36,523 nucleotides of DNA from Phycisphaerae bacterium (GCA_030429365.1 JAUIEW010000019.1:1-36523); one strand, 5' to 3'; numbered from the stretch's first letter, positions 17,545-35,032 are shown. A program made the numbers and translations. The notes: generated by a model from the sequence alone, not told the origin.

Positions 17545-17718
17545 CACGCGTGCGGACACTGAAACATTACACCGCTGCTGGCGATCTGTCCCGGTGGCAA
17601 ATTGGCGAACGCATGGCATCAGTCGCTTGTTGTCGACAAAACCGCGCGATCACGGATGAGCGCGTAACCAGCGGCGAATCAAGACTGAGTGGCCAGGCGA
17701 TCGCAGGAGGTTTTTGAA

Positions 17719-18999
17719 ATGCGTCGTAACCGAAGCGTCGTCTTGGGCGTCGCTTGCGTTTTTGTGGTCGGCTGGCTCGCGGCTTGTTCGATCAACGTCA
17801 CGACCGACGACGGCGGCACGACCTTGGCGTTTTCCATCGCTGGTGTCACCGTATCGATCTCATTGGGAAGCGATGGAAGTTTCGACATCGTGGCGGACGG
17901 CCCGCCAGTGCAGAAAACCGTTGGCGTGAAACTCTTCGATGAAACGCCGGACGATCAACCGGTGGGAGCCACCCTGATTCTCCCGGCTTCCGGCGTCACG
18001 TTCATCCCCGAAGGATCAACCGCAAAGCGAAGCGCAAAGACCCGGCAAGAAGCCCCAGAATTGCTCTGTTTGATGGACGTCTACATGGCCGACACGAGCG
18101 TGGCCAATCCGTGCGAAGATGGCGTCTATGTCGGCACGTACGAAATCATGCGCTTCGCCGACAGGACGATATTCATCAATGAAAGTGAACAACGTATCGC
18201 GGACTCGCTAATGGGCTCCGTCCGCGCCGGACTGTTTAACCTTTGTATGAAGGTCACGGGGAAGAGGACCGGCCGCGTCATCATCGATGAATTGCAGGTT
18301 CGTTTCGACGACGCGATCATTGGTGGCAATACTGGCGGCAACACCGATGGGAATACAGACAACGACGACGGTTCCTCATCCGACGGAAACTCCGACGATA
18401 ACTCAGGCGACAATCCCGACGACGGCGATACGTCCGGCGGCACGGATGACAATCCCGACGATAATGCGAATGGCGGCGACGATGGCAATGGCGGCGACAT
18501 CGACGACATGGATGGCAGTGGCGATGATTCGAATCCCGTCAACCCGCTCGATCCTGACGGCGACGGCAACTTCGACGCTCAGGTGTGCGACGATCACACA
18601 TCGGTTGAGATATCAGCCGAAGTTCCGCCGCGATTCAGCGGTAGTGAAGGGAACGTCGCGTGCCTGTCGAAAATCCACTTCAAGAATGTGGGTTCGCACG
18701 GTATCACCATCTGGTGGCACGTTCACAAGGAGGTTCCATCCACCGGCAACGTGACGGAAGACGGTTGGTATGCGATCGGACTGGATCCCGGTACTGAGGT
18801 CGACAGTATCGAAAGCGCTTGGCTTTATTCGGAGCAGAACGACTCGCTGCTACACGTGGTGACCGATCAGGTGATGGTAACGCGATACGACAACGAGTAC
18901 GCCGACGGTTGCCGATGGCTGAGCAACGCCATCAGAGAAGACGCATCCAGCCTCGACCTCACCAAGATCGACGTCACAGACCTCAATCCGTGCGAATAG
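17719..18999 (+). CDS. Acidic-repeat lipoprotein, function unknown
   Basis: This is a 426-residue protein. The ATG at 17719 was chosen because AGGAGG lies 8 bases upstream. The signal VVLGVACVFVVGWLAAC carries a lipobox with Cys23. Residues about 24-200 look globular (TTDDGGTTLAFSIAGVTVSISLG, then LMDVYMADTSVANPCEDG). About 205-285 is a stretch of Asn, Gly and Asp repeats (GGNTDGNTDNDDG, NPDDNANGGDDGN) ending in DPDGDGNFD, which looks like a calcium-binding loop. The C-terminal domain (about 290-426) has several Cys (CDDH, ACLSK, DGCRW, NPCE) that may form disulfides. A surface or outer-membrane location is inferred. No family is recognised. Confidence 0.75.
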   Translation: MRRNRSVVLGVACVFVVGWLAACSINVTTDDGGTTLAFSIAGVTVSISLGSDGSFDIVADGPPVQKTVGVKLFDETPDDQPVGATLILPASGVTFIPEGSTAKRSAKTRQEAPELLCLMDVYMADTSVANPCEDGVYVGTYEIMRFADRTIFINESEQRIADSLMGSVRAGLFNLCMKVTGKRTGRVIIDELQVRFDDAIIGGNTGGNTDGNTDNDDGSSSDGNSDDNSGDNPDDGDTSGGTDDNPDDNANGGDDGNGGDIDDMDGSGDDSNPVNPLDPDGDGNFDAQVCDDHTSVEISAEVPPRFSGSEGNVACLSKIHFKNVGSHGITIWWHVHKEVPSTGNVTEDGWYAIGLDPGTEVDSIESAWLYSEQNDSLLHVVTDQVMVTRYDNEYADGCRWLSNAIREDASSLDLTKIDVTDLNPCE

Positions 19000-22131: not shown

Positions 22132-23010
22132 ATGAAAACCAAACGAATTCTGATTGCTGATGACGACCGCGGTATTCTGCTCGCACTGAGCCGCCGCTGT
22201 GAGGGTCTCGGGTTGAATGTCGAGCAGGTCACCGACGGACTTGCCGCGATGGCGAGCATTTGCAAAGACCCGCCGGACTTGGCCATCCTCGATATCAACA
22301 TGCCGGCAGCGGACGGGCTAGCGGTTTTTGAGAAGTTGACCACCGACCCAAGCATGCCCCCGCTGCCCGTGGTCTTCCTAACAGGCGACCGTGATGCCGA
22401 CACCATCAAACAGTGCGAGGCGATGGGCGCGTACCACGTTGAAAAAGGGGCAAGTGCCTGGCCGCAACTTGAGCCGATTCTCATGGAATTACTGAATCTT
22501 GAGACAAAGGCTGCGCGAGTTCCGCCAAACAATCTCACGCTGAATTACGCCAGAAACAAAGGTGCCTCTGTGGCTGCGCCAAGAATTCTCGTCATCGATG
22601 ATGATGCTGACATTTCCAAAGCCATCATGGTTCGACTCAGGCCATACGGCATCGAGACGTTGCGGGCGTTTGGCGGGATGCAAGGGTATTGGATGGCCCT
22701 GAAAGAAAGGCCCCACGTCATCGTCTCAGATTTCTACATGCCGGACTGTTGCGGCAATTATGTTCTGGGACGACTCAAGAGGCATGCAATCACCAAGGAT
22801 ATCCCGGTCATCATTCTCACTGGACGATCAGAGGGCGGCGCCAAGGACTATTCACTGCAGCGAGAAATGGTGGGACTTGGAGCATCCGAGTTTCTAGCCA
22901 AGCCGCTCGACATCCACGCCCTCCTGGCTGCGTTGCGGACACACATGAGCATTCCAGAGATTGCTGCCAACGTAAGGCCGCAACTCTCCGGGCAGTTCGC
23001 ATCGCGCTAG
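22132..23010 (+). CDS. Double-receiver response regulator (REC-REC)
   Basis: This is a 292-residue protein. REC1 (about 4-125) has ADDD, the phospho-acceptor in AILDINMP, Thr in FLTGD and Lys in HVEKGA (Pro after Lys lost). REC2 (about 150-275) has VIDDD, VSDFYMP, ILTGR and FLAKPLD. Both acidic pockets, acceptor Asp and Lys are intact, so both can probably be phosphorylated. There is no output domain; a linker of about 25 residues joins them. AAAGGTGG is 7 bases before the ATG. It faces a leftward run of three single-receiver genes, which suggests a joint signalling unit. Confidence 0.92.
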   Translation: MKTKRILIADDDRGILLALSRRCEGLGLNVEQVTDGLAAMASICKDPPDLAILDINMPAADGLAVFEKLTTDPSMPPLPVVFLTGDRDADTIKQCEAMGAYHVEKGASAWPQLEPILMELLNLETKAARVPPNNLTLNYARNKGASVAAPRILVIDDDADISKAIMVRLRPYGIETLRAFGGMQGYWMALKERPHVIVSDFYMPDCCGNYVLGRLKRHAITKDIPVIILTGRSEGGAKDYSLQREMVGLGASEFLAKPLDIHALLAALRTHMSIPEIAANVRPQLSGQFASR

Positions 23011-23086
23011 CGACACGTGCGCGAATTCCTGCACGTCCGATTGTTGACCGCATCATGTGCAACTCTGTAGAACGACACCGCAACTC

Positions 23087-23467
23087 CTAAGTGCCTGCGC
23101 TTTGAAGTTCCAGAATTGATTTGATCGACACGACCAGATCGTTCGAATCGAAAGGCTTGGTCAAGAACGCAACCGCCCCCTGTTCGAACGCGATTCGACG
23201 ATTGTCGGCACAGTCCCGCCCGCTGAGATAAACCACGGGAATATCTCTCGCCCGCGATGAGAATTGCAGGCAGTGATGAAATTCCAAGCCCGTGTAGCCG
23301 GGCATATCGACATCTAGAATGATCAAATCGGGCAAACACTGCACGACCGACGACGAAGCATCGTGGGCGCAATTCTGCACCACGACATCAAAGCCGGCAG
23401 ACTGCAACCTGACGGCGATGGCTTTCGTCAACGCCTTGTCATCATCGACAACGAGAATCTTGCTCAT
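23087..23467 (-). CDS. Single-domain response regulator (CheY-like)
   Basis: This is a 126-residue stand-alone receiver. The acidic pair is in VVDDDK, the acceptor Asp in LIILDVDMPG, Ser in VYLSGR and Lys in FLTKPFD, all conserved. It is last of three leftward receivers, 39 bp after the gene at 23507. With no output domain it would act as a phosphate carrier or by binding a partner. Confidence 0.92.
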   Translation of the reverse strand: MSKILVVDDDKALTKAIAVRLQSAGFDVVVQNCAHDASSSVVQCLPDLIILDVDMPGYTGLEFHHCLQFSSRARDIPVVYLSGRDCADNRRIAFEQGAVAFLTKPFDSNDLVVSIKSILELQSAGT

Positions 23468-23506
23468 GGTCTCAAGATTACCTGCGTACCAGAGAAATAG
23501 ACGGCG

Positions 23507-23893
23507 TTAAGCACAGACGGCCTGTCGCCCCTCAGCGACCATTTGCGATTCAAGGATTTCGCGGAGGCTTTCCGACTCGAGCGGTTTGCGCAGGTACGAC
23601 ACGTTGCTCAAATCGTCGAGCATCCCGCCGAAGTTGCTCTTGTCATAGCCGGTGAGCATGATGATCGGGGCATCTGTTTCCTGCCTGATCATGTAAGCGA
23701 TTTCACGGCCATCCCCCGATGGCATCTGATGGTCCAGTATCAACGCATCGACCTGCGCCGTCGTCGCCTGGGCAATCACGCCAAGTCCGTCGGACGATTC
23801 CACGACATCATAGCCCCACTCTTTGAGTCGCTTTCGCAACGAACGACGGAGCTGCCGGTCATCGTCGGCGATCAAGATTCTCTTCTTTTTCAT
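23507..23893 (-). CDS. Single-domain response regulator
   Basis: This is a 128-residue receiver (134 if the ATG at 23911 is used). The ADDD pair, acceptor in LILDHQMPSGDG, Thr in MLTGYD and Lys in YLRKPLE are all present. GGGGG is 11 bases before the chosen ATG at 23893, whereas the ATG at 23911 has no ribosome site. It lies a few tens of bases after the gene at 23920 and is probably in the same operon. Confidence 0.9.
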   Translation of the reverse strand: MKKKRILIADDDRQLRRSLRKRLKEWGYDVVESSDGLGVIAQATTAQVDALILDHQMPSGDGREIAYMIRQETDAPIIMLTGYDKSNFGGMLDDLSNVSYLRKPLESESLREILESQMVAEGRQAVCA

Positions 23894-23919
23894 TGTGCGC
23901 AAATCCCCCATGAAACCGG

Positions 23920-24291
23920 CTATGCGTCTGCCCCGCCCACCGTCGCCATCAGTTCGCCAATGTCATACGGCTTGCGAAAGTAACCGTCCGCATCACTGAC
24001 GCCAACGCAGCGCTCCACGTATTCAACACTTGGGGTGTCTGCTCCCGAAAGGAAGAAAATCTTGGTCCGTCGTTCGGGATCGGACGCCCTCATCTGTCGG
24101 CAAACTTCAAAGCCGCTCATGTCTGGCATTGAAGCATCCAATAAAATGATGTTCGGTTTATTGGAGTTAAACTGATCGATCGCTGCTTGTCCGCTTGCAG
24201 CTTCCAACGTTTCATAATTTGAACTGCTGAATCGAGTGCGTAATGCTGTACGTGTTGCGCGGTCATCGTCCACAATAAGTATCTTCTGCAT
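23920..24291 (-). CDS. Single-domain response regulator
   Basis: This is a 123-residue receiver and the first of the leftward trio. VDDDR, acceptor in IILLDASMPDMSG, Ser in FFLSGAD and Lys in YFRKPYD are conserved. A run of six G (GGGGGGAAATC) before the ATG is a strong ribosome site. It is divergent from the histidine kinase gene. Confidence 0.92.
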   Translation of the reverse strand: MQKILIVDDDRATRTALRTRFSSSNYETLEAASGQAAIDQFNSNKPNIILLDASMPDMSGFEVCRQMRASDPERRTKIFFLSGADTPSVEYVERCVGVSDADGYFRKPYDIGELMATVGGADA

Positions 24292-24590
24292 GATTTCCCC
24301 CCTCGGTCCATTGCTTTACATCTACATAATCTTCACCATGCGTCAGCGAACAAGTTTTCGCCGGGTACATCGTACAATACACGTGCAACACTATTTGAAC
24401 GGTCTCAATGAACCGTGAAGAGGCTCGCCGCGAAAGAGCCGAAAAAGACTGTGGCTCGGTACCAAGCTGGGCGGATAAGCACATCTTGGACCGGCGATGA
24501 AATTCGTTTTGTTTTCCTCGATGCAATGTAACTTTCGTTCAACGTCGCAGACAAGTTTGTAACTCGCACGTCGACAGGAGAACGCCAACC
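24292..24590. promoter_or_regulatory. Divergent intergenic region of the receiver trio and the kinase
   Basis: These 299 bp separate two divergent units and should hold both promoters. ACGGT/ACCGT can form a short hairpin near 24400. No gene is seen. AGGAG lies about 10 bases before the kinase ATG. Confidence 0.4.
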
Positions 24591-26168
24591 ATGTCTTATG
24601 ACCACTTCAAGGTCCTGGCTATCGAAGACGACTCGGGCGACGCAGAACTACTGCGCCGGCACCTTGAATCGATTTCCACGTTCGACACGACCTTCATCCA
24701 TGCAACCACCCCCCAGGCTGCCAAAGACGTGTTGTCCAAAGACACTGTCGATGTCATCTTCCTGGATCAAATGCTTGGGGCTGACACCGGTATGCACCTG
24801 CTCAGCCAATTGCGCGATTCCGGCGAATTGCGTCCCATCATTGCCATGACGGGACAAGGCGACGAGTACATGGCCCGCGATTCGATTCGAAACGGGGCGG
24901 ACGACTATTTGGTCAAAGGTGACCTCGCCCCTGAACTGTTGCGACGCTCCATCGAAAACGCGATCGGTGGGTTCAAGCGAAGGCAACTGGAGCAGATCAA
25001 TGCCAAACTTGCAAAAGACTTGAAGCAGAAGAACGAGTCACTCAAACTGAAAAACCGCCGACTCGCAGAGTTATACGACACGGCCCACGAGTTCGTTGAC
25101 AATGTGTCGCACGAATTTCGCACGCCACTGACTGTGATCAAGGAATTCACTTCAATTCTATACGACGGTTTGGCCGGAGACGTCTCAGCAGAGCAACAGG
25201 AGTATCTGGCCACCGTCTTGGATCGCGTCGATGACCTGGCCACCATGGTCGACGACATGCTCGACATCAGCAAACTGGAAGCCGGGCTTCTTGGTATTGC
25301 TCGCAAAGTCTGTACCGTCCGGGAAGTCTTCGATCGCGTCCAGAAGACACTGGAGCGCAAAGCCGCATCAAACCAAGTTCACCTAGCGACCAACATCGCG
25401 GAGTTGCTTCCTTCAATTTACTGCGACCCCGAAAAGATCGGGCGGGTCATCATCAACCTCGCAATCAACGCAATCAAGTTTTCCGATGAGGGTGGCAAAG
25501 TTACGCTCTGGGCCGACAAGGACTCGGAGTTGGACACCATCAGAATCGGTATATCCGACAACGGCCCGGGCATTGACCCAGACAAGGTTTCAGAAATCTT
25601 CGACCGTTTCCAGCAAGCCGGTGGAGAGATCCGATCAAGCACGAAGGGGTTCGGCCTGGGTTTGAATATCGCTCGTGAGCTTGTGCGCCTGAATTTCGGC
25701 GACATCGATGTGTCCAGTGAGCTTGGCGAAGGCAGCACGTTCTCATTTACGGTCCCTGTGTATGACCCACAGCTCCTCATCCGACGGTACCTCGAGCGCA
25801 TTCAATCATTCTGTGAAAACGCGCAATACGTCTCATTGTTTGTGGTCAAAGTCGCCGCGACGACCGATACCCTGGCGTTGGAAGATGCTGAGCGATTCCT
25901 GCAACATCAGATTCGACGAAGTGACTTTGTCATTTCATCCCCCTCGGGCGGCTGGATTGTCGTCGCTGCCAGCAATCAGGCGGAGTTGGGCGCGTTGATG
26001 AGCCGCATCGAAAGCGCCCGCAACGAAGCCAATCGAAATCGTCCGGGGTCGCAGCTCCCCCAACTAACATTCATGATGCGCGGAAATTGGTTGATTCACG
26101 AAGATAGCCAAGAGTTCGTCGAGGCATTTGAGAGTGAAGTAAACGAATTGGGGCTAACCTATGCCTGA
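24591..26168 (+). CDS. Hybrid histidine kinase: REC-coil-HisKA-HATPase-degenerate GGDEF
   Basis: This is a 525-residue soluble protein. A receiver is at about 7-122 (acceptor Asp59 in IFLDQML, Thr in MTGQGDE, Lys in YLVKGD). A coiled coil follows (about 128-165, LKQKNESLKLKNRRL). HisKA has His174 in NVSHEFRTPL. HATPase_c shows N-box INLAINAIKFS, G1 DNGPGID and G2 GFGLGLNIA. The last about 125 residues (VSLFVVKVAATTD, FLQHQIRRSDFVISSPSGGWIVVA, ALMSRIESARNEANR) look like a GGDEF fold in which GGDEF has become SGGWI, so cyclase activity is unlikely. With no membrane segment, the input must come through the receiver or a partner. It overlaps the next receiver gene by 8 bp. Confidence 0.9.
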   Translation: MSYDHFKVLAIEDDSGDAELLRRHLESISTFDTTFIHATTPQAAKDVLSKDTVDVIFLDQMLGADTGMHLLSQLRDSGELRPIIAMTGQGDEYMARDSIRNGADDYLVKGDLAPELLRRSIENAIGGFKRRQLEQINAKLAKDLKQKNESLKLKNRRLAELYDTAHEFVDNVSHEFRTPLTVIKEFTSILYDGLAGDVSAEQQEYLATVLDRVDDLATMVDDMLDISKLEAGLLGIARKVCTVREVFDRVQKTLERKAASNQVHLATNIAELLPSIYCDPEKIGRVIINLAINAIKFSDEGGKVTLWADKDSELDTIRIGISDNGPGIDPDKVSEIFDRFQQAGGEIRSSTKGFGLGLNIARELVRLNFGDIDVSSELGEGSTFSFTVPVYDPQLLIRRYLERIQSFCENAQYVSLFVVKVAATTDTLALEDAERFLQHQIRRSDFVISSPSGGWIVVAASNQAELGALMSRIESARNEANRNRPGSQLPQLTFMMRGNWLIHEDSQEFVEAFESEVNELGLTYA

Positions 26169-26541
26169 TCGACGACGGTTGCTTGTTATCGATGACGACC
26201 GAAAAATCGCCCAAGCAGTCGCCGTTCGCCTGAAAGCAGCTGGCTACGATGTGCGAATCGCCCACGATGGCGATGCCGGTCTTACCGCGGTTGCAGAGCA
26301 ACTGCCCGACGCGATTGTCCTTGACCTTCGGATGCCAATTCGCGATGGGCTATCTGTGCTGCACGCGTTGCGTGCACAAGAAGAAACGGCGGACGTTCCG
26401 GTCGTGGTTCTGTCGGCCAGCGCTGTTGACAAGAACAGCGCGCTGCACGCTGGCGCCCAGTACTTCCTACCCAAGCCCCACGATTCCAAACTGCTGTTGG
26501 CCTCAATCGAATCTGCACTTGGCAACCATGTCGCGCCATGA
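26161..26541 (+). CDS. Single-domain response regulator, coupled to the kinase
   Basis: This is a 126-residue receiver. VIDDDR, acceptor in AIVLDLRMPIRDG, Ser in VVLSAS and Lys in YFLPKPHD are intact. Its ATG lies inside the last codons of the kinase gene (8-bp overlap), so translation is probably coupled, which makes it the best candidate partner of that kinase. Confidence 0.92.
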   Translation: MPDRRRLLVIDDDRKIAQAVAVRLKAAGYDVRIAHDGDAGLTAVAEQLPDAIVLDLRMPIRDGLSVLHALRAQEETADVPVVVLSASAVDKNSALHAGAQYFLPKPHDSKLLLASIESALGNHVAP

Positions 26542-26611: not shown

Positions 26612-27349
26612 TTATTCAAAGCCGTCTTCACTTGAGGCGGCGACGAGTTCTTCCTGCATGGGATGCGGCCCAAGCCATCGAACCTCTCCGGTGTCCAGAT
26701 TGTAGATCGCTCCCTCGATTCGTGTCTGCTGCTCGCAAATCGCACCCCGAATCGAATTGCTATGTGCAATCAGATCCTCAATACTCCGCCAGACGTTGGC
26801 TTCGATCGAAGCATTCAGAAGCGCACCGCCTTCAAGCTCGGGATGCTCAAGGCGAACCTTCTGGATTGGCTCGTCGATGTGCGCTAGCAGGCGGGTAATG
26901 CTCCCATGCTCTGGGCTGTGGTTGACAGCCGCTGTCACTGCGCCGCACTCCGTGTGACCCAACACAACAACGAGCGGCACGTGAAGATGCGCGACCGCAT
27001 AGTCAACAGAACCCGTCTCATCCGTCATGCAGACGTTGCCAGCCACTCGAATCACAAAAATGTCGCCTATCCCCGCCCCCATCAACTCTTCCACCGGAAC
27101 GCGCGAATCGCTGCACGCGACAACTGCGGCATAGGGATGCTGTCCATGGATCGCCGTATCGTGGCGGCGGGCCGCATCAAGATGCGGATACGTTCTGGTA
27201 CCGCGTACGAATCGCTCGTTGCCTTCCTCCAAAGCTTTGAGCGGCTGTTCGTACGGATCAATTCCGGAAAAGTGATCGGTCTGTGAACAGCCAGCCACGA
27301 CAATCAACAAAGTGATAAATGCGGTTGAATGAAGATGATTTAGTTTCAT
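26612..27349 (-). CDS. Beta-class carbonic anhydrase, lipoprotein
   Basis: This is a 245-residue protein. The N-terminus LITLLIVVAGC-type signal (FITLLIVVAGC, lipobox Cys21) predicts export and lipid anchoring. The enzyme domain has the zinc ligands Cys79 (in ACSDSR), His132 and Cys135 (in GHTECGA) and the Asp81-Arg83 dyad, so catalysis of CO2 hydration is expected. Most beta-carbonic anhydrases are cytoplasmic; an exported one would act on CO2/bicarbonate in the periplasm. The ribosome site is modest (AGG 9 bases upstream). It converges with the receiver gene at 26161. Confidence 0.92.
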   Translation of the reverse strand: MKLNHLHSTAFITLLIVVAGCSQTDHFSGIDPYEQPLKALEEGNERFVRGTRTYPHLDAARRHDTAIHGQHPYAAVVACSDSRVPVEELMGAGIGDIFVIRVAGNVCMTDETGSVDYAVAHLHVPLVVVLGHTECGAVTAAVNHSPEHGSITRLLAHIDEPIQKVRLEHPELEGGALLNASIEANVWRSIEDLIAHSNSIRGAICEQQTRIEGAIYNLDTGEVRWLGPHPMQEELVAASSEDGFE

Positions 27350-27627: not shown

Positions 27628-29004
27628 TTATTGCGTTCGTTGCTTTTTCGCTTGGGTTGGTTGGCGCGTCGGCTGTTGCGCGCAGGCAAGATCGTGCTGC
27701 TTGAGAAGCGGCGCAGTGTGCGCGGCGATGGCTTGGGCAATGGCTTCGTTGCCCACCGCATTCGGATGACCATCGATCGTCATCGGGTAAGGCTGCCGTC
27801 CTGATTGCACAAAGTCCCGCAATGAATGCCCGACGTTAACGTGCTCGATGCCGCGCTCGTTTAGGAACGCCGCGATCCTTTCCAGCGCTGTCGATTCGTC
27901 GGCCATTAGTCGCCTCATGCCCGGGTACTCGTGGCGTGTTTCTATGACCGCGTCAAAGACCCACTCTTTGGTTGGAATGATGGCAACGACGAACTCGACA
28001 TGGCGAGCCTTGCAGCGTGCTGAGATGCGTGAAACGGCTTCCAACGTGATCTTGAGACCAGCGTCGATCCGCTCGTCGGTCATATCGATCAGCGCGCTCC
28101 GATATGCGGGTGTCAGAATGGTCCGTTGGTGATCAACCTCCAAAGCGCTGGTTTTCGGATGACGCTTCGACCACTTGACGTTGCGAGCCCATTTCTGATC
28201 GGACTCTGTACCGCCTCCAAGCGCCCCTTGGATACGGTCGCCGACCGAATTCTTGATCGCCCGCGCGAGACCGTAAAGCTTGCAATGGTCGGACAACACA
28301 TTTCGACACTGGCCCAAAAGACCACAGGACTTTCGGGTTGTCCGTTCGTCGGTGCGCTCGGTTAGTTGGCTTCGAATCTTTGCATTCCACATGTCCTCGC
28401 GTTCGATCGCATCGACGCCTTCCGGAAAGACGCTCGACTCCAGGTCGTAACATGCCTGTCGAAGTACCACCGAGCGGTAGGCATCGGCGATGTCATTGCC
28501 CATGTACAAACCGAGGACAATGACCTTCGGGTTCTTGCGAAGCGCGGCATCCATGACCATCAGGTACTCTGCCGGCCCCCATCCGGAAATCCCCATGTTG
28601 TACGTGGAATGCCCGGTGTCACGCTCGTGCAAAACGGGCCACGACTGCTCGTGCGTGCTATGTGTCTGCGAGTCGCCAATCGCCACAACGTCTGCATGCT
28701 CCAGCACGGTAGCGTTGCGAAATCCAAGACGATCGTGTCCGGGGTATTCCGGATTACCGCGCACGCCCAGGATCACGTCTGGAATCAACATCGCCGGCGC
28801 TTCGGAATCGAGTCTGGCTTGGAGGTGCTCGGGCAGCAGCGCATACCGAATGGAGGGAACACACATGGAAGCGAGTTGAAGTTGTGCTTCGCACACCGTG
28901 AGCGCCAACATCACCGCCATGGCCCGGAAGAACCAGCGGCGGCGACGCACTTTCGGTGGCGCGGCAACGACATCTTCACGCCGTCTCGCGACATCTTGAT
29001 CCAT
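27628..29004 (-). CDS. SGNH-hydrolase-like membrane protein, probable glycan O-acetylation partner
   Basis: This is a 458-residue protein from the ATG at 29004, chosen because it places a basic stretch and one helix (WFFRAMAVMLALTVCEAQL, 24-42) at the N-terminus. The frame is open to 29181 and the ribosome site is weak, so the start is uncertain. The periplasmic part has the SGNH blocks VVAIGDSQTH (Ser112), GISGWGPAEYL, LYMGND and a C-terminal DGHPNAVG (Asp/His pair). Such proteins often act with MBOAT acyltransferases to acetylate surface polysaccharides, and an MBOAT gene is directly upstream in the same direction. The tail is Gln/Thr/Lys-rich and probably disordered. Confidence 0.8.
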   Translation of the reverse strand: MDQDVARRREDVVAAPPKVRRRRWFFRAMAVMLALTVCEAQLQLASMCVPSIRYALLPEHLQARLDSEAPAMLIPDVILGVRGNPEYPGHDRLGFRNATVLEHADVVAIGDSQTHSTHEQSWPVLHERDTGHSTYNMGISGWGPAEYLMVMDAALRKNPKVIVLGLYMGNDIADAYRSVVLRQACYDLESSVFPEGVDAIEREDMWNAKIRSQLTERTDERTTRKSCGLLGQCRNVLSDHCKLYGLARAIKNSVGDRIQGALGGGTESDQKWARNVKWSKRHPKTSALEVDHQRTILTPAYRSALIDMTDERIDAGLKITLEAVSRISARCKARHVEFVVAIIPTKEWVFDAVIETRHEYPGMRRLMADESTALERIAAFLNERGIEHVNVGHSLRDFVQSGRQPYPMTIDGHPNAVGNEAIAQAIAAHTAPLLKQHDLACAQQPTRQPTQAKKQRTQ

Positions 29005-29149
29005 GCACAGTGCGTTTGCGGTCGTCAAAAAGCACCCCTTAAGTACGGGTCCGGATAAAGTAAGACTCTCCTGTTTATCGGACAGATTCCCGTGTCTTCC
29101 AGCCAACCATCGTTGTTGAACATGTCGAGCCAAACACGACAACTTCCGC

Positions 29150-30589
29150 CTAAAACATGAAGTAAAGAAACGGCGTCTCATTCATGAACGTCGTCAGTGT
29201 GCAGACAACCACGGTTCCCATGGCCACGCCGACGACCGGCTGGCGAAACTTCGGAAGCTCTTCACTGTTTGGCGCACCGAAGGTCAGGACCGTGACAAAC
29301 AGCAGGAACGCTATTCCGTGCATTCCCGAGAATTGCTCATAAATCCCGGGAAAGCTGATCCCCAGCGTCGTCGACACGTACGAAAACGGTTCCACGCCAT
29401 GCAGTCCGAACATGCCAGAAAGCACCGATGCTGCCCCCTCAAGCGAATGCGCCCTGAAGAACACCCAGCCGACCATCACACTCGTAAACGTCACGCCGAT
29501 CGCCAGCGTTCGATTCAACTGAACATGCGTCAGCCGCTTCCAGGTCGCGTGTGTCATCAGCAGTGCGCCGTGAAACACGCCCCAGACGACGAAATTCCAC
29601 GCGGCACCGTGCCATAGACCGCCCAGAAACATGGTGATGCCGAGATTGCGCAGCGTCTTGGCTGTACCGCGGCGCGAACCGCCCAACGGGATGTACAAAT
29701 AGTCGCGAAGCCAATGCGAAAGGGTGATGTGCCAGCGATTCCAGAATTCGGAAATGCTCGCCGACTTGTACGGCGAATTGAAATTGATCGGGAAGGTGAA
29801 ACCCATCATCAGTCCCAGCCCGCGGGCCATGTCGCTGTACGCGGAGAAGTCGAAGTAGATCTGAAACGTGTAGCAAAGCGTTCCGACCCACGCGGTGATC
29901 ATCTGCGGCGACGACTCGGAATCAAACGCCAGTGCGGCTACGGGGGCGAGCACATCCGCGATCCAGATCTTCTTGACCAGTCCGATCACGAACAGCCACG
30001 CGCCATCGCAAATCTGCTCGTGATTGGTTTTCTGATGACGAAGCGTTGCGAGCTGGTTTTCGATGTCGCGATAGCGAACGATCGGGCCTGCAACCAACTG
30101 CGGAAACATCGACACGTATGCGGTAAAGAGAAGCAGGTCGCCCGTCGGTTTGCACTGACCGCGGTAAATGTCGATCGAATAGCTCATCGACTGAAATGTG
30201 TAGAACGAAATCCCCAAGGGCAGCACGACGTTCAGCACCGGCAGCGAAGCGTCCACTCCAATGACGGCCAGCAGGTCGGCGCACGATTGCGTGAAGAACC
30301 CGTAGTACTTGAAGAACCCCAGCGAACCGAGGTTGCCCGCGATGGAGCAGATCAGCCAGCGCTTGCGCGCAACGGGCGAGTTGGAATCCGCGATCTTTCG
30401 CCCGCAATGGTAGTCCAGAAGCGTCGAAGCCAGCATCAGCGCGACGAAGCGGTAGTCAAGCCAGCCGTAAAACACGTAACTCATCGCCGTGAGAAACGCG
30501 AGCTTCGCACGGTACGAACGAATCAGGTACCACCCGCAGAGCATGAGCGGAAGGAACGCGAGAACAAAGATGTAGCTCGGAAAAATCAA
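29150..30589 (-). CDS. MBOAT-family O-acyltransferase (AlgI-like)
   Basis: This is a 479-residue polytopic protein of AlgI length. The start is a TTG at 30589: it overlaps the stop of the upstream gene (TTGA), has AGAGG 10 bases upstream and gives the family N-terminus MIFPSYIFVLAFLPL. Visible blocks are YVFYGWLDYRFV, LPLGISFYTFQSMSYSIDIYRG, FPQLVAGPIVRY, the ARGLGLMMGF segment and FLGGLWHGAAWNFVVWG, containing the catalytic-type His. AlgI-like proteins move acetyl groups across the inner membrane to a periplasmic acetyltransferase acting on an exopolysaccharide. The flanking SGNH-like genes would supply that second step. Confidence 0.95.
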   Translation of the reverse strand: MIFPSYIFVLAFLPLMLCGWYLIRSYRAKLAFLTAMSYVFYGWLDYRFVALMLASTLLDYHCGRKIADSNSPVARKRWLICSIAGNLGSLGFFKYYGFFTQSCADLLAVIGVDASLPVLNVVLPLGISFYTFQSMSYSIDIYRGQCKPTGDLLLFTAYVSMFPQLVAGPIVRYRDIENQLATLRHQKTNHEQICDGAWLFVIGLVKKIWIADVLAPVAALAFDSESSPQMITAWVGTLCYTFQIYFDFSAYSDMARGLGLMMGFTFPINFNSPYKSASISEFWNRWHITLSHWLRDYLYIPLGGSRRGTAKTLRNLGITMFLGGLWHGAAWNFVVWGVFHGALLMTHATWKRLTHVQLNRTLAIGVTFTSVMVGWVFFRAHSLEGAASVLSGMFGLHGVEPFSYVSTTLGISFPGIYEQFSGMHGIAFLLFVTVLTFGAPNSEELPKFRQPVVGVAMGTVVVCTLTTFMNETPFLYFMF

Positions 30590-31698
30590 TTCAGGTGAAC
30601 CTCTGCCGCGACGCGCTCAAGGATCACGTCGCAATTGCGGGTGGCTGGATGCATCGGATCGAAGAATCCGTCCGGGTCGCCGCCCAACGTCGTGATGTCG
30701 GAGGCATCGATGATTCCCGAAACCACCGGATAGTCCCGGCGAAACTGATTCAGCATCGTCTTGAGTTCTTCCAAGTGCTGGGGATGTCGCGTCTTGACCA
30801 TGAGTTGCTGATAAAGCAGTGGATGAACAGGATTGATCACGAACACGACCTGGATGTTTTCGCGCTGGCAGATATCGAGCGTCTCGACCATGTAGTCGAT
30901 CTTGGTCTGATCCATGCGCTCGAAGTTGTACATGGGAAACTGATCCACGAACCGCACGCTCGATTGGCTCGATTCACGAATCGATCGGCTGATGTCTTCC
31001 GTGATGGAATAAGCGCCACTCTCGACCGCGTCAAAGACTTCGTTTCCTTCCCAGAAGTATCGCACGCGCGTGCCGTCGGTTTCAAACCACTCCGACGCTT
31101 CCAATGGCGGCGCTTCGGTGCGTTCGTAGCGATCGTCCCAGAACAGTTTCCACGACAGCGCGAGTTGCTGACCCGACAGCGAATCGATGAAGTTCGCCCA
31201 CGTCCGCTTCGTCCAACCGACACCCGGAAGGTGCTGCGACAGTTGCGGCGCGTTGAGCAATCGGCGACGAATCCCCGGGAAAACAGGGTGTTCGTTCATC
31301 GCCGGGGCAAAACTCCACGTGTCGATCCCGACGATGACGAGTTTCGGTTTGTGGTGAAGGTCGTCAACGAAGTGGTGCGTGATGCAGAGGAAGTCCTCGG
31401 CCCGCCCCCAGAAGACGCCGAAGTTGAACGCGCTTTTTCCCATCAACTGGCTGATGGTCGCCGGTCGAAACCGCATCGTGTTCGACGAACCCATCACCAC
31501 GATCTCGGGAAGGTCACCCGGCGCGAGCCCATCGATGTAATCCGCCTTCGCGAGCCTGGCGTTGTAGAGGCGATGAAAACCGGTCTTGCCAAAATCGCCC
31601 CACGGATTGACGTACACCGAAAACGCAAACAAAACCAAGACGCCGAACACAAACGTCCCGCACACGCTCACCAAGAACGCACGCGGCGACGGCGTCAT
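30586..31698 (-). CDS. SGNH-like membrane protein, MBOAT partner
   Basis: This is about 370 residues from the ATG at 31698; the frame is open to an ATG at 31833 that adds 45 poorly structured residues. An N-terminal helix (FLVSVCGTFVFGVLVLFAFSVYV) anchors it. The rest looks periplasmic: EIVVMGSSNTMRF (Gly-Ser-Ser block, 65-77), FNFGVFWGRAEDFL, LVIVGIDTWSF, then VVFVINPVHPLLYQQL and FFDPMHPATRN (Asp/His block) near the end. This order resembles the catalytically related AlgX/AlgJ-type and DUF1574-like proteins. It overlaps the MBOAT start by 4 bp, so the two are probably cotranslated. Confidence 0.75.
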   Translation of the reverse strand: MTPSPRAFLVSVCGTFVFGVLVLFAFSVYVNPWGDFGKTGFHRLYNARLAKADYIDGLAPGDLPEIVVMGSSNTMRFRPATISQLMGKSAFNFGVFWGRAEDFLCITHHFVDDLHHKPKLVIVGIDTWSFAPAMNEHPVFPGIRRRLLNAPQLSQHLPGVGWTKRTWANFIDSLSGQQLALSWKLFWDDRYERTEAPPLEASEWFETDGTRVRYFWEGNEVFDAVESGAYSITEDISRSIRESSQSSVRFVDQFPMYNFERMDQTKIDYMVETLDICQRENIQVVFVINPVHPLLYQQLMVKTRHPQHLEELKTMLNQFRRDYPVVSGIIDASDITTLGGDPDGFFDPMHPATRNCDVILERVAAEVHLN

Positions 31699-32134
31699 GA
31701 CCACCGCAACAAGCCAGCGTACAACGCGCGACCGGGACTCCGGACAAGCCGCATCCACAAGTCCGCCGCACACCTGCCCATCGATTGAGTTGACCGACGC
31801 CACCTGACAACGTGGCGCGCAGGGAGCATCCATTGCGCTTCATCCGCAGAGTCGATTCGACATTGGTTCCGATAACAATCAATCGGCATTTCCACGTTGC
31901 GAAATGACTGCATCCATAGGGGTCAACGCATCAAACGCCTACTGTGCACTAGACCAGCCGTCCAATTCAATCAAACGGTTTGCGTCAACTCTCATTGAAC
32001 CGAAATGAATGAACCGAAACCTCCCCGTCATACCTTCAGGTCCCCTCCAAGACTTCCGAAAGTGCCGATAACGGGCGTCGTCTAATACGCAGACGACCCG
32101 AATTCGAATACCGGGAAAACGGATTTTCCTTTCA
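31699..32134. promoter_or_regulatory. Divergent promoter region between the two glycan operons
   Basis: About 300-436 bp, depending on the start of the leftward gene, separate the O-acetylation unit from the nucleotidyltransferase operon. No RNA or clear dyad was recognised. Confidence 0.4.
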
Positions 32135-32929
32135 ATGAACGACTGCGTCGTCATCCTCGCGGGTGGGCAGGGAAGCCGCCTTCGACCATACACCACCGTC
32201 CTGCCCAAACCGCTCATGCCGGTGGGCGATGTGCCCATCCTCGAAGTGCTCGTCAAGCAGCTTCGCGCGCTCGGGTTGAAACGCCTCATCTTCGCAACGA
32301 ACTATCGCGACGGATTGCTGCGCTCCTATTTCGGGACGGGGCAAACGCTTGGCGTGGACATCACCTACTGCAAAGAGAATCGGCCCATGGGTACGGTGGG
32401 CCCGTTGCATCTCGTCGCTGACGAACTGCCGCAATCGTTTCTGGTGATGAATGGCGATATCCTCACCGACCTGAACTACCGCACGCTGCTCGAAAACCAC
32501 AAGCAGTCGGGCCAACTCTTGACGCTCGGTACCTACGAACGCCGCCTGCAAATCGGCGACGGCGTACTCGACATCGACGGTGCCGGCTGCGTCTCGGCGT
32601 TTCGCGAAAAGCCCACGATTCCGCTGACGATTTCGCTCGGCGCGTATGCCATGGACCGCGCCATTCTCGACCTCATCCCCGAAGGCTTGCCCTTTGGCAT
32701 GGATGAGCTGGTTCTGTCGATGCTCGAGCGTAATCTGCCGGTCAACACCTACCGCCACAACGGCATGTGGCTGGACATCGGCACGCCCGGCGACCTGGAA
32801 AAAGCCAACGAACTCTTCTCGTCCAAACGAAAGTCGTTTCTCGGCATCGACCCAGCCACACTGCTTGCGCCCAACGACACACCGCAATCAACCGCGTCGG
32901 CTAACCCAACAGAAGGAGTCTGCGTATGA
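32135..32929 (+). CDS. Sugar-1-phosphate nucleotidyltransferase
   Basis: This is a 264-residue protein with the NTP-transferase fold. The nucleotide loop ILAGGQGSRLRPYTTVLPKP covers about 7-26, LVMNGDIL holds a metal-binding Asp, FREKPTIPLTISLGAYAMD follows, and MWLDIGTPGDLEKANEL closes the domain. It activates a sugar phosphate to an NDP-sugar; mannose-1-P or GlcNAc-1-P guanylyl- and glucose-1-P thymidylyltransferases share these motifs, so the sugar is undetermined. The stop overlaps the next ATG (ATGA), indicating coupling to the dehydratase gene. Confidence 0.9.
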   Translation: MNDCVVILAGGQGSRLRPYTTVLPKPLMPVGDVPILEVLVKQLRALGLKRLIFATNYRDGLLRSYFGTGQTLGVDITYCKENRPMGTVGPLHLVADELPQSFLVMNGDILTDLNYRTLLENHKQSGQLLTLGTYERRLQIGDGVLDIDGAGCVSAFREKPTIPLTISLGAYAMDRAILDLIPEGLPFGMDELVLSMLERNLPVNTYRHNGMWLDIGTPGDLEKANELFSSKRKSFLGIDPATLLAPNDTPQSTASANPTEGVCV

Positions 32930-33915
32930 AGCTCGCGGGCAAACGTGTACTCATCACCGGCGGCACCGGATTCATTGGCTCGCACCTTGCCGAGTTGCTC
33001 GTCAAGAACGGCTCGCATGTCCGCGTGTTGGCCAACTACAAGAGCATGCCCAGTTGTGGCAACCTCGATTACGTCGATCCATACATTCGCGACGAAATCG
33101 AAATCGTCTGGGGTGACGTGACCGATCGCGACTCGGTGATGAATGTCGTCGACGGCGTGTCCGTCGTCTTTCACCTGTCGGCTCTGATCGGTATTCCGTA
33201 TTCATACATCGCGCCGCTGTCGTACGTGCAGACCAACATCAACGGGACGCTCAACATTTTGCAGGCGTGTCGCCAACTCAATATCGAACGCCTCGTCCAC
33301 ACGTCCACGTCGGAAACGTTCGGCTCGGCGCAGTACACCCCGATGGACGAGAAGCACCCGCTCGTCGGACAGTCGCCCTACTCAGCCACCAAGCTTGGCG
33401 CCGACAAACTGACGGAGAGCTTTGCTTGCAGTTTCGATTTGCCCGTCGTCACGGTTCGGCCGTTCAACGTCTTTGGCCCGCGTCAGTCCGATCGCGCCAT
33501 CATCCCGACGATCATCGCCCAGCGCATCGCCAGTGACGCCCCGGTTCGCATCGGCGACCCTTCGCCGCGCCGCGACTTCACCTTCGTCACCGACACCGCA
33601 CGCGGATTCATCGCTGCGGCCCAGTGCGACGAGGCCATTGGGCGAACGTTCAACATCGGTAACGGCAAGTCGATCTCCATCGGCGAACTGGCTGAGACGA
33701 TTTGCGAACTGACCGGCGGCGGTACGTATGTCAGCGAATCGCAGCGCATCCGCCCGAAGAAAAGCGAAGTCAACGAACTACGTTGCGACAGCACGTTGGC
33801 CCGCACCGTCCTTGGATGGTCGCCCGAAGTGTCGCTGACCGACGGGCTTGTCGAAACCATCGAGTTCATGCGCAGCCATACCGAGATGTACGCGCCGCTG
33901 GAGTATCGCGTGTAG
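32926..33915 (+). CDS. NAD-dependent sugar-nucleotide 4,6-dehydratase (LegB-like extended SDR)
   Basis: This is a 329-residue extended SDR. TGGTGFIGSHL (11-21) is the nucleotide loop, HTSTSETFG (125-133) includes the dehydratase-type Thr/Ser-Glu pair, and Tyr152 and Lys156 lie in PYSATKLGADK. RPFNVFGPRQSDRAIIPTII and RRDFTFVTDTARGF follow. The blocks NYKSMPSCGNLDYVD, LIGIPYSYIAPLSYVQTNINGTLNILQA and GQSPYSATK closely recall LegB, which makes a 4-keto-6-deoxy-GlcNAc nucleotide for legionaminic acid in some bacteria. The rest of a legionaminate pathway is not present here. AAGGAG precedes the ATG. The TAG stop lies inside a REP-like element. Confidence 0.88.
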   Translation: MKLAGKRVLITGGTGFIGSHLAELLVKNGSHVRVLANYKSMPSCGNLDYVDPYIRDEIEIVWGDVTDRDSVMNVVDGVSVVFHLSALIGIPYSYIAPLSYVQTNINGTLNILQACRQLNIERLVHTSTSETFGSAQYTPMDEKHPLVGQSPYSATKLGADKLTESFACSFDLPVVTVRPFNVFGPRQSDRAIIPTIIAQRIASDAPVRIGDPSPRRDFTFVTDTARGFIAAAQCDEAIGRTFNIGNGKSISIGELAETICELTGGGTYVSESQRIRPKKSEVNELRCDSTLARTVLGWSPEVSLTDGLVETIEFMRSHTEMYAPLEYRV

Positions 33916-34001
33916 GGTCCGCTGTGCGGACCACTGCGCGTATCTTGCGCTGTAACGACGAATGCCCATTGAAGACTGAAGGTCCGCTCAGCGGACCCTA
34001 C
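33912..34001. repeat. REP-like long inverted repeat, second copy type
   Basis: Arms of 21 bases at 33912-33932 and 33981-34001 are complementary except one mismatch, with a 48-base spacer. The arms begin GTAGGGT and end ACC like those at 10648-10711, but the middle differs (CCGCTGTGCGG). The leading GTAG supplies the stop codon of the dehydratase gene. The right arm ends 3 bases before the GGAG ribosome site of the glycosyltransferase gene, so folding could affect its translation. Confidence 0.75.
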
Positions 34002-34015
34002 ATTGGAGCTTACCC

Positions 34016-35032
34016 GTGCCCACAGTTTCCGTCGTCGTACCCACATACAAGCGCGTCAAGTACCTGGGCCGCATGATCGATTCGGTCGTCGCACAGACCT
34101 ACACCGATTGGGAATTGATCATCGTTGACGGCGAATCCAACGACGGGACAGCCGAACTGGTCGAAAGCTACCGCAAACTCCTCGGCGACCAACTCGTTTT
34201 CATCGAACAGAAGAACGCCGGATGCTGCATCGCCCGAAACACCGGCATCGATGCGGCCCGCGGTGAGTTCGTCGCCCTGCTCGATTCGGATGACGAGTTT
34301 CTGCCGAACAAACTCAAGCGGCAAATGGAGCTGTTCGAGCTTGAACCATCGCTCGGGTTCGTCTTCGGCGACTATTCCTACCTCGATCTCGAAGGCAACT
34401 TTCAACGCAGCATGTTCGACACGAAATCGAAGATCGCGCGGACCGTTCCGTCCCGGGAAGTCGCGCCGAACCTTCACGTCTGCGCGCCGAACTTCTTTTC
34501 GTATCTCCTGAAGGAATACTTCGTCGCCACGATCGTGGGCGTGGTGCGTCGCGATGTGCTTGCCGATGACATTCGCTTTCTCGAACACGATCTGTACGGC
34601 TGCGAATGGCTGTTCTACCTCGAAATCGCCAACCGCTGTCGCACGGGGTTCGTCGACGAGCCGCTGTGCCTGCACCACTACGTCGATGGCAGCCTGTCGC
34701 GCACATCGAAGACGCGCAACACGATCTACCATCGCCGTCTGCTCAAGACCATGCTCGACCGCTTCCCCAAGCTAACCCTCCCGCAAACGCAGGAAGTTCG
34801 CCGCCAATTGGCTGAGACGTGTCGCCAACTCGGTTACGAAAGTTTCAAAGCCGCCGAGTACGGTCCGGCGATGGGATATTTTCGTGAGGCCATGCAAGCC
34901 CGCCCCAGCGCCGCGTCCGCCGTCCACTGGGCCCAATCGCTCCTGCGCCGTGCGGCCACCCTGAACCGCCCCGGCCACGAACCCATGCTCCGCAACGACG
35001 CCTACCGCAACCCAACCTGCATGAGCACGTAG
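34016..35032 (+). CDS. Family 2 glycosyltransferase
   Basis: This is a 338-residue protein starting at a GTG (34016), chosen because GGAG lies 7 bases upstream and the frame begins with the GT2 strand VSVVVPTYKRVKYL. WELIIVDGESNDGT, NAGCCIARNTGIDAARGEFVALLDSDDEF (DxD at 90-92) and a GCEWLFYLEIANR acceptor-site block are present. The last about 80 residues are helical and TPR-like (LAETCRQLGYESFKAAEYGPAMGYFREAM). It probably adds a sugar to a cell-surface glycan using a product of the two genes upstream. No membrane helix is seen. The stop codon is part of a GTAGG hairpin element. Confidence 0.92.
   Translation: MPTVSVVVPTYKRVKYLGRMIDSVVAQTYTDWELIIVDGESNDGTAELVESYRKLLGDQLVFIEQKNAGCCIARNTGIDAARGEFVALLDSDDEFLPNKLKRQMELFELEPSLGFVFGDYSYLDLEGNFQRSMFDTKSKIARTVPSREVAPNLHVCAPNFFSYLLKEYFVATIVGVVRRDVLADDIRFLEHDLYGCEWLFYLEIANRCRTGFVDEPLCLHHYVDGSLSRTSKTRNTIYHRRLLKTMLDRFPKLTLPQTQEVRRQLAETCRQLGYESFKAAEYGPAMGYFREAMQARPSAASAVHWAQSLLRRAATLNRPGHEPMLRNDAYRNPTCMST

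Follow-up and report, generated by a model that had tools for sequence, protein, structure and literature searches.

The stretch of DNA considered here, called the window, is 36,523 nucleotides long and comes from the metagenome-assembled genome (MAG; 5.23 Mb in 455 contigs) of a Phycisphaerae bacterium of the phylum Planctomycetota. Positions 22132–26541 of the window contain an island of six genes, which encode seven receiver (REC) domains and one histidine kinase, here termed the hub kinase. Gene A (22132–23010, plus strand) encodes a 292-amino-acid REC-REC protein with domains A1 and A2 (two PF00072 stretches, E = 1.4e-35). It is followed on the minus strand by three single-REC genes, B (23087–23467, 126 residues, PF00072 E = 5.5e-21), C (23507–23911, 134 residues, E = 2.7e-20) and D (23920–24291, 123 residues, E = 8.1e-24), with a spacing of 8 bp between D and C and of 39 bp between C and B. 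A divergent intergenic region of 299 bp (24292–24590) separates gene D from the hub kinase gene (24591–26168, plus strand, 525 residues, identified by Pfam). The ATG of the last gene, F (26161–26541, plus strand, single REC of 126 residues, E = 2.3e-22), overlaps the stop codon of the hub kinase by 8 bp.

In alignment all seven RECs retain the acidic cluster, the phospho-acceptor Asp, the Thr/Ser and the Lys. The inventory of the first-pass annotation, six genes with seven intact receivers and one kinase, is thus borne out by Pfam and alignment, and the gene coordinates agree with its account of the strands, three receivers pointing leftward and four rightward with the kinase's own REC included. 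Seven RECs lie within 4.4 kb, where about 0.05 would be expected under an even scatter of the 65 REC matches found in the whole genome; chance clustering is ruled out, since 27 related loci exist. The same annotation had described the island as free of phosphotransfer (HPt), DNA-binding and enzymatic output domains. Indeed, Pfam reports no HPt domain and no DNA-binding or catalytic output domain above its cut-off in the six genes, the only part of the genome searched for HPt, but the kinase carries an additional, degenerate GGDEF domain. NCBIfam assigned only generic REC or kinase names to the island genes, all under cut-off, and a promoter and terminator scan gave counts at or below shuffle expectation.

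The hub kinase contains an N-terminal REC domain (residues 8–110), a HisKA domain (167–232), a HATPase_c domain (279–390) and the degenerate GGDEF domain (about 393–525; 25767–26165, plus strand). The phospho-acceptor His174, in the motif SHEFRTPL (codon 25110–25112, plus strand), is invariant in the alignment of kinase relatives, and the ATP-site boxes are present. Pfam gives no match for residues 393–525. A 29-member profile of the kinase C-terminus, searched against PDB sequences, matches the diguanylate cyclase 9p6j (E = 6.6e-4), and the Pfam families GGDEF and GGDEF_2 each match seven of the 29 members weakly. The AlphaFold2 (AF2) model of this domain has a confidence score (pLDDT) of 90.5, and GGDEF domains and PelD head the list of its fold matches (Foldseek E = 5e-4 and 9e-4). 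The VIA match list is almost entirely GGDEF, with Z values of 9.5 and 9.4 over about 120 residues and a root-mean-square deviation of 4.0 to 4.4, such Z values being middling by themselves. Comparison by hhalign with the cyclases of neighbouring loci and of the same genome gave P = 6e-4, with a probability of just 28%. By the PDB profile match, the AF2 fold and hhalign, the C-terminal ~130 residues are a degenerate GGDEF domain that has lost its active site (A-site).

The alignments by hhalign and by HMMER to 9p6j give an identical register. In this register RRSD (25914–25925, plus strand) coincides with the RxxD of the inhibitory site (I-site), with the Arg present in 23 and the Asp in 27 of the 29 members. 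The catalytic GG(D/E)EF motif is replaced by SGGW (25944–25955, plus strand), in which Trp, found in 26/29 members, stands for the Phe of GGEEF and the catalytic acidic residues are missing. The positions preceding this Trp drift freely, and none of the 29 members has the catalytic motif. A helix Arg (26004–26006, plus strand), kept in 26/29, aligns with the cyclase Arg at the third I-site position, which completes the I-site in PleD. The RxxD is complete in 21 members, 19 of which also have the helix Arg, and the predicted inhibitory-site residues for cyclic diguanylate (c-di-GMP) are retained in most relatives of the hub kinase. SgmT and PopA are known to combine a degenerate A-site with a kept I-site, and in them this pattern accompanies c-di-GMP binding (PMC3509222). 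The hub kinase may likewise bind c-di-GMP, which could tune phosphate flow through the degenerate domain. The genome encodes enzymes for both synthesis and breakdown of c-di-GMP, with 13 strong GGDEF and three EAL matches.

Full-length relatives of the hub kinase, 35–66% identical, span the REC, HisKA, HATPase and C-terminal parts. They were found in about a fifth of 80 relatives and, at E ≤ 1e-100, in eight of 392 genomes sampled across the phylum, the source genome included. Named records with such kinases belong to Phycisphaerae, to which the closest relatives are assigned in public records, to Pirellulales, to Planctomycetes bacterium K23_9 and to Adhaeretor mobilis; two further MAGs are labelled Pseudomonadota and may be misbinned. 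At one locus from a MAG labelled Proteobacteria (L043:5-3200), possibly a misbinned planctomycete contig, two tandem kinases share the C-terminal domain.

The neighbourhoods were compared at 27 related loci with a full-length kinase relative, some of which share a genome or genus and are not all independent. Conservation of the neighbourhood had been set as a test by the first-pass annotation, and the set proves conserved: the REC class of gene F is found at 26/27 loci and A1 or A2, as a REC-REC protein or part of one, at 23/27. The window has both beside its full-length kinase. The mean number of RECs within 7 kb, the kinase's own counted, is 6.3 per locus when the window is added to the 27. 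At two loci (L049 and L051) the F REC is fused to the C-terminus of the kinase. No gene family other than kinases and RECs occurs at more than three related loci, and the absence of a conserved HPt protein or transcription factor is therefore a property of the family. Judged from these sequences, the hub kinase is not a generic hybrid kinase, and the cluster is the predicted core of a conserved module.

A tree of 177 REC domains from the related loci and the window groups each REC of the window with counterparts from other loci in a class of its own, although its deep forks are weak because only 129 columns were available. The A1 and A2 classes have 29 and 24 rows. The B class has four rows (support 100/72) and points away from the kinase at other loci as well, the C class has six rows (100/99), every one divergent from the kinase, and the D class has four rows (100/99). 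Within the genome, where about 51 RECs outside the window were long enough for comparison (one contig being counted twice), B is the closest relative of F, with 41% identity. The α1 helices of A2, B and F are so alike that just 0.3 to 1.6% of the REC pairs within the genome match them in similarity, while those of C and D differ from them by eye. The RECs of the Rcp type, of the hub kinase and of the cyclases have a common α1 consensus, DDxxDxxLxRR.

The family extends beyond the genes of the window. An Rcp-type REC is present at 17/27 related loci, mostly adjoining a sensor kinase, and the sensor kinases scanned there have PAS, HAMP or MASE3 domains. A linked pair of sensor kinase and Rcp-type REC is absent from the window and is not strictly required in the kinase family. 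At the closest relative, L039, with a kinase 66% identical, the pair lies between gene D and the hub kinase. Eight of the 27 loci have an intact REC-GGEEF diguanylate cyclase, which lies nearby at six (L047, L049, L050, L062, L063 and L068, of which L062 and L063 represent one genus) and is fused upstream of the kinase at L058 and L059. These fusions (L058:10104-12662 and L059:8893-11514) have the order REC-GGEEF-REC-HisKA-HATPase-degenerate GGDEF, so that one kinase combines a dead GGDEF domain with an intact cyclase. At two Pirellulales loci (L047:110-7051 and L049:11134-12516) REC-GGDEF proteins near the cluster have terminal CBS domains.

Likely counterparts of the parts absent from the window are encoded elsewhere in the genome, as suggested by sequence similarity. 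On contig C152, which is 3.5 kb long, a sensor kinase gene precedes a REC gene, after which the contig ends directly; this REC matches the Rcp class with 165 bits, against 65 for the next class. Contig C287 carries a kinase followed by a REC-GGEEF protein (RGDDVVGRFGGEEF), and its REC is the nearest to that of the hub kinase among the RECs extracted (45% identity, E = 4e-34; next 9e-14). Because of these counterparts and of the REC-GGEEF proteins at eight loci, a strict reading of receivers without output fails for the family. The picture of one kinase with several sinks fits the content of the window, but the window shows just part of a larger module, and a pure timer or buffer is one possibility among several.

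The reading favoured here, with a probability of roughly 45%, is that the island is the core of a planctomycete phosphorelay, in which a hub kinase set by its REC and by c-di-GMP phosphorylates stand-alone RECs. The wiring, which we infer from the observed gene content, co-conservation, domain identity and fusions, would begin with a sensor kinase encoded elsewhere that charges the RECs of the group formed by Rcp, the hub kinase and the diguanylate cyclase. The charged REC-GGEEF cyclase would produce c-di-GMP, and the hub kinase would sense the state of its own REC together with c-di-GMP, which would act at the I-site of the dead GGDEF domain, and would charge or drain its partners in response. 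Its HExxT motif would permit phosphatase besides kinase activity, as in HisKA kinases generally. Its phosphate would pass first to F and probably to A2 and B, which are proposed as partners because their α1 helices are similar, while C and D may answer to a different kinase. The stand-alone RECs would then bind target proteins, as EpsW does (PMC12802240), or compete as sinks, as LovR does (PMC5964349).

Several observations weigh against this phosphorelay. No cyclase gene lies nearby at 19 of the 27 loci. Eight of the 29 members of the kinase family lack the Arg or the Asp of RxxD, and the Asp and the helix Arg are also common in GGDEF folds for structural reasons. The likeness of the α1 helices is in part overall likeness, as B and F are 41% identical, and the pairs on C152 and C287 stand at contig ends, which hide their true neighbours.

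The loci without a cyclase favour an unlikely alternative, in which the kinase phosphorylates F as the real output, the other RECs drain phosphate as sinks or a timer, and the degenerate GGDEF domain has a structural role or serves dimerisation. Every REC looks phosphorylatable and is free of an effector domain, and phosphate sinks are established in other systems (LovR, PMC5964349; model, PMC4214558). However, B, C and D form distinct classes found at some loci only while F and A are nearly always present, which suggests separate roles, and the C-terminal domain has preserved its I-site residues despite the drift of its catalytic motif.

It is rather improbable that two or more unrelated subsystems lie side by side, one made of the kinase and F, perhaps with A, and the other a leftward operon of B, C and D serving orphan kinases. 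The opposite strand of B, C and D, their presence at few loci and the deviating α1 helices of C and D would suit such a division, but each of the three again accompanies this kinase at other loci, and B is the own-genome REC nearest to F. An assembly fault, by which the C152 pair would truly lie upstream of the hub kinase, is suggested by the gene order at L039 and by the abrupt end of C152 after Rcp but is very improbable: no more than 13 bases are common to the window and the ends of C152, leaving a join by overlap unsupported, the 299-bp gap shows no remnant of a sensor kinase or Rcp in tblastn, and the side on which gene A stands differs between the window and L039, so that the locus is rearranged anyway.

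The genes that flank the island are of other kinds. Directly after gene F lies a carbonic anhydrase gene (26612–27349, minus strand; PF00484, E = 6.6e-39) with a lipoprotein-like N-terminus. The adjoining region (27628–31833, minus strand, and 32926–35032, plus strand) is devoted to polysaccharide synthesis and O-acetylation and encodes an AlgX-like SGNH protein, an MBOAT acyltransferase, a 415-residue protein without a Pfam match, a GDP-mannose dehydratase-like enzyme and a family 2 glycosyltransferase. This region is not conserved beside the kinase at the 27 loci. The carbonic anhydrase and the MBOAT/AlgX genes were considered as output of the island and rejected, as none belongs to a family recurring at more than three related loci. 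On the other side, positions 17689–18999 (plus strand) encode a 436-residue protein that has a signal-like N-terminus and a long stretch rich in Asp, Gly, Asn and Ser, also without a Pfam match.

What appeared to be a heap of receivers without output becomes a module that recurs, with a hub kinase, partner classes that can be named and a GGDEF-type domain that had been hidden. If the link to c-di-GMP is true, the level of a second messenger would govern how phosphate enters a network of several receivers in Planctomycetota, a phylum in which literature searches found no described example. It is possible, though we lean against it, that the family represents an undescribed module, in which a dedicated cyclase regulator and a c-di-GMP-gated hub kinase stand under one upstream kinase and c-di-GMP from the cyclase branch decides between charging and draining of the receivers. 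The cluster is present in the complete genomes of Adhaeretor mobilis HG15A2 and Planctomycetes bacterium K23_9, which makes these proposals testable. The searches, which covered subscription journals thinly, returned no paper that deals with clusters of this sort in Planctomycetes; while each part belongs to a known kind, their combination and recurrence were not found described.

The closest parallel to the hub kinase is SgmT from Myxococcus xanthus, which also has a GGDEF domain with a degenerate A-site and an RxxD I-site (PMC3509222). SgmT has the order GAF-kinase-REC-GGDEF, whereas the hub kinase has an N-terminal REC, no GAF domain and the order REC-HisKA-HATPase-GGDEF. SgmT is encoded by an orphan gene and its partner DigR binds DNA, while the partners of the hub kinase would be the clustered stand-alone RECs. 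SgmT-like binding of c-di-GMP is a prediction for the hub kinase.

A precedent for wiring from one kinase to the REC of another is the CheA3-CheS3-CheY3 system of Rhodospirillum centenum, in which one kinase phosphorylates the REC of a second hybrid kinase, and that hybrid kinase alone phosphorylates a single-domain REC (PMC3868531). Its kinases are of the chemosensory type and its gene content is different, and the abstract describes no degenerate GGDEF domain (PMC3868531). In the MrrA/LovK-LovR network of Caulobacter, single-domain RECs act as hubs and phosphate sinks between kinases (PMC5964349). The genes of this network are dispersed and its output is a stress response, unlike the island, with no single conserved cluster. 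Its kinases are of the HWE type.

The REC-GGEEF proteins near the kinases of relatives and on C287 are of the same kind as the PleD and WspR cyclases. Gene A has the REC-REC head of PleD without its GGDEF domain. The GGDEF-like domain of the hub kinase differs from these cyclases in lacking the catalytic GG(D/E)EF motif, while the diguanylate cyclase fold is predicted to be retained. A classical hybrid phosphorelay runs from a kinase-REC hybrid through HPt to an effector, and the six island genes lack the HPt. The NCBIfam cut-offs for EpsW and EpsF are missed by gene B (49.5 against 200 bits) and by the hub kinase (114.8 against 900 bits), respectively. In Myxococcus xanthus the phosphorylated stand-alone REC EpsW binds an enzyme of exopolysaccharide synthesis (PMC12802240), and it may serve as a model for the possible action of F, B, C or D.

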